Positions 13,077 to 50,590 of a stretch of DNA of 64,000 nt are shown piece after piece. Source of the DNA: Bacteroidota bacterium (GTDB lineage: Bacteria > Bacteroidota > Bacteroidia > B-17B0 > Aurantibacillaceae); the NCBI GenBank assembly GCA_013297775.1, contig JAAFIL010000012.1, positions 1 to 64,000 of the forward strand, in the 5' to 3' direction. The notes under the pieces were generated by a model, which saw only the letters and a program-made list of their open reading frames with translations, made no database searches and was not told where the DNA came from. How positions within the stretch are numbered: position 1 is the first letter of the stretch; every line of letters starts with the position of its first letter. A program made the translations under genes and the position numbers.

Positions 13077-13691
13077 ATGAAGGATTTTTTTAAATTTTTG
13101 AAAACGAAAACTTTTTTTTTACACGGTGGATTAGCTGTCCTCTCGTTAATTGTGATTCTATTTTTGTTAACCAAATGGCTATCGAGTTACACCAATCATG
13201 GCGAGTATGTTGAAGTTCCAGACTTTAAAGGGCAGTTTATAAAGGCTTTGCCTGAGTTTATTAAAGAGAAAGGCGTAACCTATCAAATTATTGATAGCAT
13301 TTACGCTCCAAAAGAAAAATCAGGCACGGTTATTCGACAAGACCCTTCGGCAAAAAGTAAAGTTAAACACAATAGAATTATCTATTTATACGTTACAGGC
13401 GTATTGCCTCCTAGTGTTAATATGCCTAAGTTAATTGACCGAAGCGAGCGTCAGGCCCGTTTAATTATTGAAAGTTATGGGCTTAAGATTGGTAAAGTTC
13501 GCACACGCGAAGCCGATTGCAACGGTTGCGTGTTGGCACAAACCAGTAATGGCAAAGACTTAGAGGTAGGCACTACTATTCGGAAGGGAACGGTAATAGA
13601 TTTATTGGTAGGAGAAAAAAATACATTTTTTACAGCTAACGCATCCGACAGTAGTAATGCAGGAACAGCGAACCCTAATTTTGAAAAATGA
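13077..13691 (+). CDS. Membrane-anchored PASTA-domain protein
   Basis: This 204-residue protein has a short cytoplasmic N-terminus, one transmembrane helix (about residues 17-36, GLAVLSLIVILFLLTKWL) and periplasmic PASTA-type repeats. The repeats are VPDFKGQFIKALPEFIKEKG, then MPKLIDRSERQARLIIESYG, with part of a third (GCVLAQTSNGKDLEVGTTIRKG). PASTA domains bind peptidoglycan fragments or act as spacers in cell-wall enzymes; no kinase or transpeptidase domain is attached here. Its stop overlaps the start of the next gene (ATGA), and rluD follows that, an arrangement of PASTA protein near rluD that is common in Bacteroidota. The role is probably envelope-related but not defined. Confidence 0.85.
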   Translation: MKDFFKFLKTKTFFLHGGLAVLSLIVILFLLTKWLSSYTNHGEYVEVPDFKGQFIKALPEFIKEKGVTYQIIDSIYAPKEKSGTVIRQDPSAKSKVKHNRIIYLYVTGVLPPSVNMPKLIDRSERQARLIIESYGLKIGKVRTREADCNGCVLAQTSNGKDLEVGTTIRKGTVIDLLVGEKNTFFTANASDSSNAGTANPNFEK

Positions 13692-39577: not shown

Positions 39578-40554
39578 TGTCGAAAGCTGTAGATAACATA
39601 AAAGAACCCATTGCCACTCACATGGAAGAGTTTGAACGCAAGTTTAAAGAATCCATGAAAAGCTCGGTTCCACTTCTCGATAAAATTACTACCTATATTG
39701 TTAAACGCAAGGGCAAACAAATACGTCCCATGTTTGTGTTTTTAAGTGCGCAAAGTGTTGGTACTATTAACGACAGCACTTACCGGGCAGCCTCTTTAAT
39801 TGAATTGTTGCACACGGCTACGTTGGTACACGACGATGTGGTGGACGATAGCAACGAACGCCGTAGTTTTTTTAGCGTGAATGCCCTCTGGAAAAATAAA
39901 ATTGCTGTGTTGATTGGAGATTTTCTACTTTCAAAAGGCCTCTTGTTATCTTTAAACAACGATGACTTTCACTTACTAAAAATTGTTAGCAATGCCGTTA
40001 AAGAAATGAGCGAGGGCGAACTCTTACAAATTGAAAAGGCACGTCGCCTCGATATTTCGGAAGCTATTTATTTTGACATTATCACCAAAAAAACTGCCAC
40101 ACTTATTGCCGCTTGTTGTGCTGCTGGTGCGGCTTCGGTTAGCGATGATAAAAAAACCATTGAACAATTTAAAGAGTTTGGAACCCTTACTGGCATTGCG
40201 TTTCAAATTAAAGACGATTTATTTGATTTTGGAAACGACGATAGCATTGGTAAGCCCACCGGTATTGATATTAAAGAAAAAAAAATGACCTTGCCGCTCA
40301 TCTATGCCTTAAACAATAGCACGTGGATTGAGAAACGTAAAATCATTTCCATTATTAAACACCACAACGAAGAAAGCGAAGAGGTTAGAAAAGTTATTGA
40401 TTTTGTGATTGCCAAAAAAGGTATTGATTATGCTCAACGTATTATGACGGAGTATAAAGATAAGGCCATTGCCATTTTGCATCAACTTCCTGCTTCCCCG
40501 TCGCGTCAAAGTTTAGAAGATTTAATTAACTATGCCATTAACCGAAAATTATAG
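39577..40554 (+). CDS. Polyprenyl diphosphate synthase
   Basis: This trans-isoprenyl diphosphate synthase probably makes the C35-C45 side chain of menaquinone. The 325-residue protein has the first aspartate-rich motif in VHDDVVDDSNERR, the GKQIRPMFVF substrate loop upstream of it, and the second motif in FQIKDDLFDFGND, followed by GIDIKEKKMTLPLI. The residues two positions before the first motif are small, which allows long chains. The start is GTG, overlapping the last base of rlmN's stop. The MORN-type lipoprotein starts five bases after its stop. Exact chain length cannot be read from the sequence. Confidence 0.9.
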   Translation: MSKAVDNIKEPIATHMEEFERKFKESMKSSVPLLDKITTYIVKRKGKQIRPMFVFLSAQSVGTINDSTYRAASLIELLHTATLVHDDVVDDSNERRSFFSVNALWKNKIAVLIGDFLLSKGLLLSLNNDDFHLLKIVSNAVKEMSEGELLQIEKARRLDISEAIYFDIITKKTATLIAACCAAGAASVSDDKKTIEQFKEFGTLTGIAFQIKDDLFDFGNDDSIGKPTGIDIKEKKMTLPLIYALNNSTWIEKRKIISIIKHHNEESEEVRKVIDFVIAKKGIDYAQRIMTEYKDKAIAILHQLPASPSRQSLEDLINYAINRKL

Positions 40555-48878: not shown

Positions 48879-50590
48879 TTAATAATCAATTTCTAAATCA
48901 AATCGTTTTTTTAATTCGAGCAGAGCTGGGTATTTTTCAGCAAGTTGTTTAAACTTATCCGATGGCTTAAAAGCCTTTACTGCCGTTTCTGCTTCCGAAA
49001 TTTTGACGCTTAAAGTTAAGGTATTATTTTGTATCGTTTTACGAACTTCATCTAAAAAATCTTGTTTAACCGTTTGTAATTTTTCGTTTTGGGCTTCGTT
49101 GGTAAGGGTTAGTTGAACTTCTGTTTCGTTGAGCATGATAATGTTACACGTGGTTAAACTGACGTGTAGCATACGGTTACCCAGTTGCAATTGTTCGGCA
49201 GCATAATTGGCAATGGCTTCTTTTACCGAATCGAGCGTAAATGGTTTATTTTGAACTACCACATTTTCGCTAACAACGGGTGTTGCTGCGGTTGGATCGG
49301 ATGTACTTAAAGTTCCGTTTTGAGCCTCGTTTAAACTAAATTGCGATTTTAATTTTAATTGTTCGAAGGGTATAACGGGTTTTTCGGCTAGTTTAACACT
49401 CGGCTCCTGTAAAGCAGTTACTTTAGTGAGCGTTGGTGCAGAAGCCGTTTCGGAATCGTTAGTTACGAACTCATCTTTTTTTTTTCCGCATCGGCCGATG
49501 TGGTAAGGAATGTCATTTGCATTAAGGCCATTTCGATCAGCAGCCGTTGGTTTTTGGCACTTTTAAAGTTAACATCGGTTTTACTAATCAGCGAAAGCGA
49601 TTTCAATAGAAATTGTAAAGAACACACTTGGGCTTGTTGCGCATAGCGTTGTTTTAAGGTATCGCTAATTTCGAGTAAAGCCACCGTTTGCGGGTCTTTG
49701 CTTACCAACACATTGCGCAGGTGCTCGCCCAAGCCAATAATAAAATTATGAGCATCGAATCCTTTTTTTAAAATGTCGTCGAAGGTGAGCATAATTTCGG
49801 GCAGGGCTTGCTGCAAAAACGCATCCGTTATTTTGAAATAATAATCGTAGTCTAAAACGTGTAAATTTTCTACAACTTGTTTATAAGTTAAGTGATTGCC
49901 CGTGAAGGCAACCATTTGATCGAAAATTGAACACGCATCGCGCAAGCCACCGTCGGCTTTTTGCGCAATGACATGCAAGGCTTCGGCTTCAAAACTTACC
50001 GATTCGTTTTTAGCCATATAAGCTAAATGCCCACTTATATCTTCGGTTTTAATGCGATTAAAATTAAAAACCTGACAGCGTGATAAAATAGTGGGAATAA
50101 TTTTATGTTTTTCGGTGGTAGCCAAAATAAATTTGGCGTGTTTAGGCGGTTCTTCAAGAGTTTTTAAAAACGCATTAAAGGCTGCCGTGCTAAGCATGTG
50201 TACCTCATCAATGATATAAACTTTGTACTCGCCTAATTGCGGCGCAAAGCGAACTTGATCTACTAAATTACGAATGTCTTCAACCGAGTTATTACTGGCC
50301 GCATCCAATTCGTAAACATTTAGCGAAGCCCCTGAGTTAAAAGATACACACGACTCGCAGTGGTCGCATGCCTCGCCCTTATCGCTAATGTTAAAGCAGT
50401 TAATGGTTTTAGCAAAAATACGTGCGCAAGTGGTTTTACCAACCCCGCGTGGCCCGCAAAACAAATAGGCTTGTGCCAGTTGTTTGTTGGTGATGGCGTT
50501 TTTCAAGGTATTGGTAATATGGCTTTGCCCAACAACTGTGTTAAAATGTTGAGGTCTGTACTTACGCGCCGATACAATGAAATTTTGCAT
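48879..50590 (-). CDS. dnaX: DNA polymerase III tau-like product, made by -1 frameshift in dnaX
   Basis: Reading the first 372 codons in one frame and then shifting by -1 within the A10 run (plus strand 49,476-49,485) gives a continuous 570-residue protein ending in RFDLEIDY. The extra region has a low-complexity linker and a C-terminal domain (FTLDSVKEAIANYAAEQLQL, ending LLELKKRFDLEIDY) like the tau tail that contacts polymerase alpha or DnaB. The 49,263-49,462 stretch has no stop in this frame, which is not expected by chance. Whether the shift occurs by ribosome slippage, by transcript slippage, or is an error in homopolymer length cannot be told from sequence alone. Confidence 0.75.
49463..50590 (-). 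CDS. dnaX: DNA polymerase III subunit gamma (zero-frame dnaX product)
   Basis: This is the clamp-loader ATPase. The 375-residue protein has Walker A GPRGVGKTT, a zinc-binding set of cysteines (CFNISDKGEACDHCESC), Walker B YKVYIIDEVHML and the sensor segments TTEKHKIIPTILSRC and GGLRDACSIFDQM, followed by the clamp-loader domain III. It ends AEKKKMSS immediately after the A10 run, so the stop follows an A AAA AAG heptamer by three codons. This short product corresponds to the gamma form of E. coli; there the longer tau is the zero-frame product and gamma arises by frameshift, whereas here the zero frame is the short one. Confidence 0.92.
   Translation of the reverse strand: MQNFIVSARKYRPQHFNTVVGQSHITNTLKNAITNKQLAQAYLFCGPRGVGKTTCARIFAKTINCFNISDKGEACDHCESCVSFNSGASLNVYELDAASNNSVEDIRNLVDQVRFAPQLGEYKVYIIDEVHMLSTAAFNAFLKTLEEPPKHAKFILATTEKHKIIPTILSRCQVFNFNRIKTEDISGHLAYMAKNESVSFEAEALHVIAQKADGGLRDACSIFDQMVAFTGNHLTYKQVVENLHVLDYDYYFKITDAFLQQALPEIMLTFDDILKKGFDAHNFIIGLGEHLRNVLVSKDPQTVALLEISDTLKQRYAQQAQVCSLQFLLKSLSLISKTDVNFKSAKNQRLLIEMALMQMTFLTTSADAEKKKMSS
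49476..49500 (-). promoter_or_regulatory. Slippery A10 site with upstream palindrome in dnaX
   Basis: The minus strand reads CATCGGCCGATG (a perfect 12-bp palindrome, 49,489-49,500), three bases, then ten A residues and G. In the zero frame the codons are GAA AAA AAA AAG, which contain the classical -1 heptamer A AAA AAG; a run of ten A can also cause transcript slippage. A small downstream hairpin (TCGT/ACGA) is weak. Confidence 0.65.

Follow-up and report, generated by a model that had tools for sequence, protein, structure and literature searches.

The gamma/tau junction of a Bacteroidota dnaX gene: a conserved A run, a changing tau frame and probable transcriptional slippage

The dnaX gene considered here lies in a stretch of 64,000 nt from a Bacteroidota bacterium (the whole stretch analysed, hereafter the window), and its reading frame is broken at an A10 run between the part that encodes gamma and the part that encodes tau. 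We consider programmed transcriptional slippage of the type known from Thermus dnaX, probably helped by a hairpin, the likely source of both gamma and tau (probability about 0.8). In the proposed mechanism RNA polymerase would slip on A10 (T10 in the template) during dnaX transcription, probably aided by a nascent-RNA hairpin forming directly behind the RNA-DNA hybrid, and the transcripts would carry run lengths covering all three frames. Faithful transcripts would yield gamma (375 aa), and those with one extra A or two fewer would yield tau (570 aa or close); slippage efficiency and the gamma:tau ratio we can only infer. Because slippage is blind to frame, the tau frame may be any of the three. 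At the level of sequence comparison we could demonstrate that the position and length of the run are conserved, that the other frames are closed, that the tau frame switches, that the hairpin pairs beyond controls and that the -1 region is under coding constraint.

The dnaX locus and its two frames

On the minus strand, the zero frame of dnaX runs from ATG (50590) to TAA (49463..50590, -) and encodes gamma, which covers positions 1-372 of NF011531 (E 5e-208) and scores 441.7 bits against TIGR02397. The A10 run (49476..49485, -) starts at codon position 2, and the junction reads GCG GAA AAA AAA AAG ATG AGT TCG TAA, with the E. coli-type heptamer A AAA AAG in zero-frame phase (GAA AAA AAA AAG). 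Three sense codons past the run the zero frame ends at the TAA that terminates gamma (49463..49465, -), and the +1 frame is closed by a TGA (49471..49473, -). Already open upstream of the run, the -1 frame continues to the TAA at 48881-48879; the tau-specific region within it (48879..49475, -) stays open for about 200 codons and matches NF011531 positions 444-614 (E 8.9e-17). The two frames are two parts of one DnaX as modelled by NF011531 (614 aa), for which P0001 alone scores 692.8 bits, the cut-off being 685.

An earlier, sequence-only reading of this DNA had claimed that dnaX stops three codons after an A10 run containing A AAA AAG and that the -1 frame is open to 48,879 with a plausible tau C-terminus; the minus-strand reading and the NF011531 match bear out both points. 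Its length arithmetic also holds, 1712 nt plus one re-read base giving 571 codons, that is, 570 aa and a stop. The perfect palindrome that it placed three bases 5' of the run, CATCGGCCGATG (49489..49500, -), is indeed there and forms the core of a longer, imperfect hairpin adjoining the run (49486..49503, -). This hairpin consists of CCACATC (49503-49497), the loop GGCC (49496-49493) and GATGCGG (49492-49486), with 6 of 7 pairs and a fold of -5.7 kcal/mol. The further claim that gamma is read in the zero frame and tau is reached via a frame change only agrees with the sequence, and comparison with relatives (below) indicates that this layout is under selection.

Long A runs are rarer in the window than chance: a single A10/T10 is found in the 64 kb, against 12.4 expected from dinucleotide shuffles. 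The only other A9 runs lie at 13112-13120 (-) and 40277-40285 (+).

Substitutions in the tau region fall mostly on third positions of the tau frame in all six pairs compared. Between the window gene (L001) and its sister L023, which share 81% DNA identity over the dnaX N-terminal part, the -1 region carries 53/40/114 substitutions at positions 1/2/3, with about 211 sites each, and the corresponding counts for the tau region of the pair L085/L086 are 21, 19 and 62. This concentration on tau-frame third positions places the shifted tau frame under coding constraint.

A Pfam search with the -1 product gave no match above cut-off, and a PDB sequence search with the tau C-terminal alignment gave a best E of 0.54. 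The AlphaFold input was the window's -1 product aligned with 69 run-bearing relatives (every second of those passing), and the resulting model of the tau region has an overall mean pLDDT of 81, with block means of 88-98 over residues 71-160. Foldseek returned nothing at E 0.001 or better for this model. Among the matches listed by VIA-align, the highest score (Z 9.1) belongs to a chain from an assembly intermediate of the human mitochondrial ribosome; the SirA-DnaA domain I complex (one chain, 8.0), DciA (8.0) and RbfA (7.8) are also listed. These nearest shapes of the model (Z 8-9) are small ribosome-assembly or replication-initiation domains, which is suggestive only, and the likeness may amount to a common arrangement only. 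E. coli tau domain V is absent among the VIA-align matches listed, and this carries no weight either way.

Run, tau frame and hairpin among relatives

At E 1e-60 or better, dnaX was found in 39 of 40 genomes of the window's genus and in 82 of 87 of its family, five genomes of the latter having no match. Junctions were read in 79 of these 82, leaving out G034, G059 and G072, which are cut by a contig end; the tau frame of L030 and of L072 runs to the contig end. A wide set was assembled from the best 80 named loci, the 30 top-scoring loci from 392 genomes, 40 hand-picked loci and four records of a plasmid collection, in which tblastn had matched Bacteroidales dnaX copies. It comprises 150 loci with a junction, after four cut ones were dropped, and is not a random sample: 13 of the 40 hand-picked loci were chosen for a short frame, and all 13 have tau in -1. 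Over all loci, 303 of 312 were kept and nine duplicates removed.

The family run is A10 in 74 and A11 in five of the 79 loci read, always at the spot equivalent to that of the window, and it starts at the second base of a GAA codon in all 79. The sequence-only reading had proposed an alignment of relatives as a check, and its outcome favours the claim: besides the run in every family locus, the same frame break is present in 17, window included. Relatives with a continuous tau frame and no A run, which that reading had named as counter-evidence, did not turn up in the family, where 60 of the 79 loci are continuous, yet all 79 keep the run. Synonymous choice alone, following the genes' own codon usage, would leave 33.3 uninterrupted runs among the 79 family loci and 30.9 among the 110 of the 150 wide loci that carry A9-A12 at the junction. 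The runs of these 110 lie in codon phases 0/1/2 in 26, 42 and 42 cases, respectively; the 40 wide loci without an A run include Bacteroides and Prevotella copies. Across 211 run-bearing genes no A run of nine or more was found elsewhere in the N-terminal coding part, and three Hymenobacter loci retain A10 at a GC content of 61-62%.

Frame 0 encodes tau in 60 of the 79 family loci, the -1 frame in 17, among them the window gene, and the +1 frame in two. The corresponding numbers for the 110 run-bearing wide loci are 81, 28 and one, 13 of the 28 having been picked for a short frame, and the -1 layout also occurs in 14 of 22 run-bearing loci of a Bacteroidales family, that of L152. The +1 cases (L033, L061 and, in the wide set, L153) rest on draft assemblies and are weaker. 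Among named run-bearing loci, tau is in frame 0 in Hymenobacter polaris, Mucilaginibacter psychrotolerans, Pedobacter puniceum, Dyadobacter sp. and Flagellimonas olearia, and in -1 in Flavobacterium denitrificans, Halpernia humi and a MAG labelled Chryseobacterium gleum. The family tree (N-terminal DNA, quick method, many open forks) calls for at least 10 changes of tau frame, and a FastTree built from 61 named wider loci and six of the family gives 13. The window gene and L023 form a supported pair with tau in -1 in both, and between the sisters L054 (A10, tau -1) and L058 (A11, tau 0) the run differs by a single A. The layout with a frame-0 gamma and a -1 tau, at A9 or A10, was also seen in nine loci from more distant members of the phylum (L308-L316).

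Each of the two non-tau frames meets a stop within 10 codons in 79/79 family loci, 96/110 wide loci and 22/22 loci of the L152 family, against a background of 30% (20433 of 67929 ordinary N-terminal codon positions of run-bearing genes); in the other 14 of the 110 wide loci a non-tau frame is open for more than 10 codons. Where tau is in frame 0, the +1 frame is closed within 10 codons in all 60 family genes (background 57%) and in 70 of 81 wide ones (background 47%). The excess is weaker among the 28 wide genes with tau in -1, of which 22 close the frame for which a -1 shift has no use (background 55%).

The family form of the hairpin is CCGCATC-NNNN-GATGCGG-A10, its 3' arm touching the run. 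In the window it has one A-C mismatch, and the upstream fold is no better than its own shuffles (z -0.53); over the family the upstream fold has a mean z of -1.85 against -0.33 for the control (mononucleotide shuffles). Standard pairs fill 82% of the pair cells over 67 distinct family sequences, compared with a mean of 74% and a maximum of 76.5% in 500 shuffles, 19-44% when the compared segment was slid by 1-3 bases, and 18-58% in nine segments 60-360 bases upstream. Of the 79 family loci, 68 have a stem of six or more pairs adjoining the run (control 25%), and stems that have changed and yet remain paired include CTGCATC/GATGCAG, CTCCATC/GATGGAG and CCGCATT/AATGCGG. Compensatory cells number 33, above the shuffle maximum of 17 and the 5-24 of the slid segments; since the nine distant segments reach 23-68, the compensation count proves little alone and it is the pairing that carries the case. 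Beyond the family, such a stem is present in 40/110 wide loci (control 19%) and 3/22 loci of the L152 family (control 21%). As the excess is modest in the former and absent in the latter, the hairpin would here be at most an aid to slippage and not a requirement. An Rfam search with eight dnaX loci, both hairpin types among them, gave no match at E up to 1.

Junctions without an A run

Three named Bacteroidales/Bacteroidetes loci without a run (L130, L146 and L152) carry an in-frame TAG at codon 367-368, after which the same frame continues to the tau end. The in-frame UAG element with its small stem (L130:2788-2832, L146:4102-4146, L152:4099-4143) recurs in 40 further loci, so that, with the L152 family sampled, TAG ATW GCN AGR stands at the dnaX junction of 43 loci. 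Positions 1-5, 7, 8, 10 and 11 of this 12-mer are invariant, and those that vary (6, 9 and 12) are third positions of the continuing frame; the peptide after the UAG is IAR in 42 of the 43 and IAS in one. Frame 0 is open for 186-259 codons after the UAG in 43/43 loci, with a third-position excess downstream in all eight sister pairs, slight in two. A small stem comes directly after this motif in 39 of 43 loci, against 20% of shuffles (counted per sequence), and is built from GCC/GGC, CCC/GGG, CGC/GCG, GTC/GAC, CGCT/AGCG and other arms. RNAalifold found no consensus pair in the UAG alignment, the stems lying in several registers, and for this reason the model of the element, R1, describes primary sequence only.

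Model R1 matched 50 of 121 genomes of the L152 family, at one place each. Full-form matches at dnaX account for 48 (six of them located by coordinates only); the other two are a weak match in G539, off its dnaX contig, and a partial +1 variant at dnaX in G576. This 50/121 is the prevalence, whereas the UAG in 38 of the 40 loci L233-L272 is not, those loci having been picked for a short frame. Order-wide, R1 matched at least one of 295 genomes in a coarse search (21 candidates per genome, stricter filters).

Readthrough of the UAG is the simplest reading of the element, and tau is apparently made by it; the alternatives at this site would be bypassing or a shift that by chance restores the frame. 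Reassignment of UAG to sense was considered and is unlikely, prfA (RF1) being over cut-off in 6/6 genomes, three of them with the element. Seven of the 43 tau genes with the element end in TAG. We also discarded the idea of a dispersed repeat, the 12-mer being present in 1-3 copies per genome in nine genomes. Two relatives of the UAG family (L227 and L254) have AGC TAG in frame 0 and tau in +1, open for 179 and 204 codons, respectively; in L254 the +1 frame gives RSPQAEH, just as downstream of the UAG element.

Other junctions without a run were also noted. In Bacteroides, Prevotella and relatives (L113, L121, L127, L128, L285, L291, L298 and L325-L327) a common GGGC-NNN(N)-GCYC stem codes GGG CGY AGC CCY or near, and in several of them the -1 frame meets TAG or TAA at once; this junction is possibly another recoding site. 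In L271 the dnaX TAA follows GTT TTG GGG GAG CGT and has an inverted repeat, GGCCGGGTG...CACCCGGCC, immediately 3' of it; here the -1 frame stays open for 221 codons. The Bacteroidales locus L131 has tau in +1 and no homopolymer at the junction, which may be a draft-assembly error.

Putting run-bearing and run-less junctions side by side, we lean towards the view, which seems to us somewhat better than even, that gamma/tau recoding has been kept across much of Bacteroidota while the means are free: the tau frame would drift neutrally, and in one Bacteroidales family the run would often have been replaced by UAG readthrough.

Slippage, rival explanations and known systems

Slippage by RNA polymerase, reportedly described for Thermus thermophilus dnaX by Larsen et al. 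in 2000, should show itself in a homopolymer about as long as the RNA-DNA hybrid, lying in any phase, with both other frames closed and with indifference to the tau frame; all four features were seen. From a -1 ribosomal shift one would expect a fixed phase, one closed frame, and a Shine-Dalgarno (SD) sequence and downstream stimulators as in E. coli. Programmed at A AAA AAG with E. coli chemistry and the roles reversed, so that slipping ribosomes would make tau, such a shift finds the heptamer in the right phase, and UUU is the only tRNA-Lys anticodon seen, as in E. coli (30/33 tRNA loci scanned; 150/375 candidates scored). Moreover, all run-bearing loci but the three +1 ones could obtain their gamma or their tau through a -1 event. 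Those three would require a +1 shift, however, and runs of A9-A12 in all three phases exceed what a heptamer needs, while the +1 frame is also closed beyond background. None of the 79 family loci, window included, has an SD-like stimulator (six SD-like pentamers, 5-22 nt upstream), and such a motif is present in 11 of 110 wide loci. There is also little downstream structure: in the window the fold of the 70 nt past the run does not surpass that of shuffles (z +0.31), the mean z over the 79 family loci is -0.53 against -0.05 for the control, and the hairpin sits 5', adjoining the run. On these sequence features the ribosomal shift appears unlikely and RNA polymerase slippage fits better. The sequence-only reading had drawn the parallel with Thermus, an A run with transcript slippage.

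That reading had kept a homopolymer miscount as its alternative, in which case the true gene would have one A more and a continuous tau frame, as is found in 60 of 79 family members. The layout with its run is nevertheless present in 17 family genomes including L023, in 28/110 wide loci and in 14/22 of the L152 family, and Antonov et al. (2013, PMC3711429) had found the reversed type in other genomes; separate errors would be needed in 17 family genomes, which makes a miscount very unlikely. Just as improbable is an independent gene with its own start in the second frame: a GTG-started ORF of 127 aa is present in -1, but the same region is fused in frame in 60/79 family loci, and no stop closes the -1 frame short of the run. 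We attach still less weight to a decaying gene of which gamma alone is used and the tau part is a remnant. A stop does interrupt the long frame; against decay stand the open -1 frame of some 200 codons with its match to the tau part of NF011531, the differences from the sister gene, which lie mostly at third positions, and the fact that no second gene of the window's genome passes the TIGR02397 cut-off. Programmed transcriptional slippage is the reading that we retain.

The role of gamma in E. coli was long controversial (reviewed in PMC5009743). A junction that stays slippery and closed in two frames in many Bacteroidota, while the tau frame changes repeatedly, is evolutionary evidence for a need of both products, and the loci gathered here offer a natural series for the dependence of RNA-polymerase slippage on run length and on an adjacent hairpin. 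Annotation is also concerned: in genes whose zero frame encodes gamma, tau may be overlooked or the gene taken for a broken one. With the NCBIfam model PRK14955 no longer than 397 aa, gamma may in some groups be annotated as the complete protein. If the UAG element holds up, a bacterial housekeeping gene would carry a recoding signal of a new kind, and a bacterial replication gene a case of programmed stop-codon readthrough.

Both slippage at dnaX (Thermus) and the reversed layout with ten A's are already in print, the latter in Antonov et al. 2013 (PMC3711429), who described reversed dnaX genes with two ORFs and a -1 shift for tau, ten A's being present in nine of 17, and proposed transcriptional realignment. 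The window gene is of this type, with the gamma stop in frame 0 and tau in -1. Features seen here that do not appear in the passages of PMC3711429 on which we draw are the hairpin, a tau frame that changes repeatedly within one family, and tau in +1; in the open-access literature we found neither a hairpin at the dnaX run, nor a repeated tau-frame change in one family, nor the UAG element.

E. coli dnaX, as described in PMC3711429 and PMC5009743, uses a ribosomal shift stimulated by an upstream SD-like sequence and a downstream stem-loop, with tau in frame 0. The window gene shares with it the making of gamma and tau from one gene and an A AAA AAG within the run, and differs in having gamma in frame 0 and neither an SD-like nor a downstream stem-loop stimulator that we could find. 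In Blochmannia the dnaX frame is broken in a poly-A tract, with correction by transcriptional slippage proposed (PMC3017870); that break lies inside the tau-only part, whereas the break in the window lies at the gamma/tau junction. Closer is Thermus thermophilus dnaX, where RNA polymerase slips on an A9 run, both other frames are stopped and two products result (PMC5009743, PMC1088944). The two genes have in common at least about nine A at the gamma/tau junction and nearby stops in both non-tau frames; Thermus has A9 and tau in the template frame, the window A10, gamma in the template frame and a 5'-adjoining hairpin. For the hairpin, the nearest parallel is the Roseiflexus IS630 transposase, in which a nascent-RNA stem-loop with a 4-nt loop stands directly 5' of T5C5 and a one-base deletion depends on it (PMC5009743). 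A stem-loop directly 5' of the slippage motif is shared with the window, where 6 of 7 pairs adjoin A10, but slippage in IS630 depends on its stem-loop, while A10 is a length at which slippage would be expected without one.
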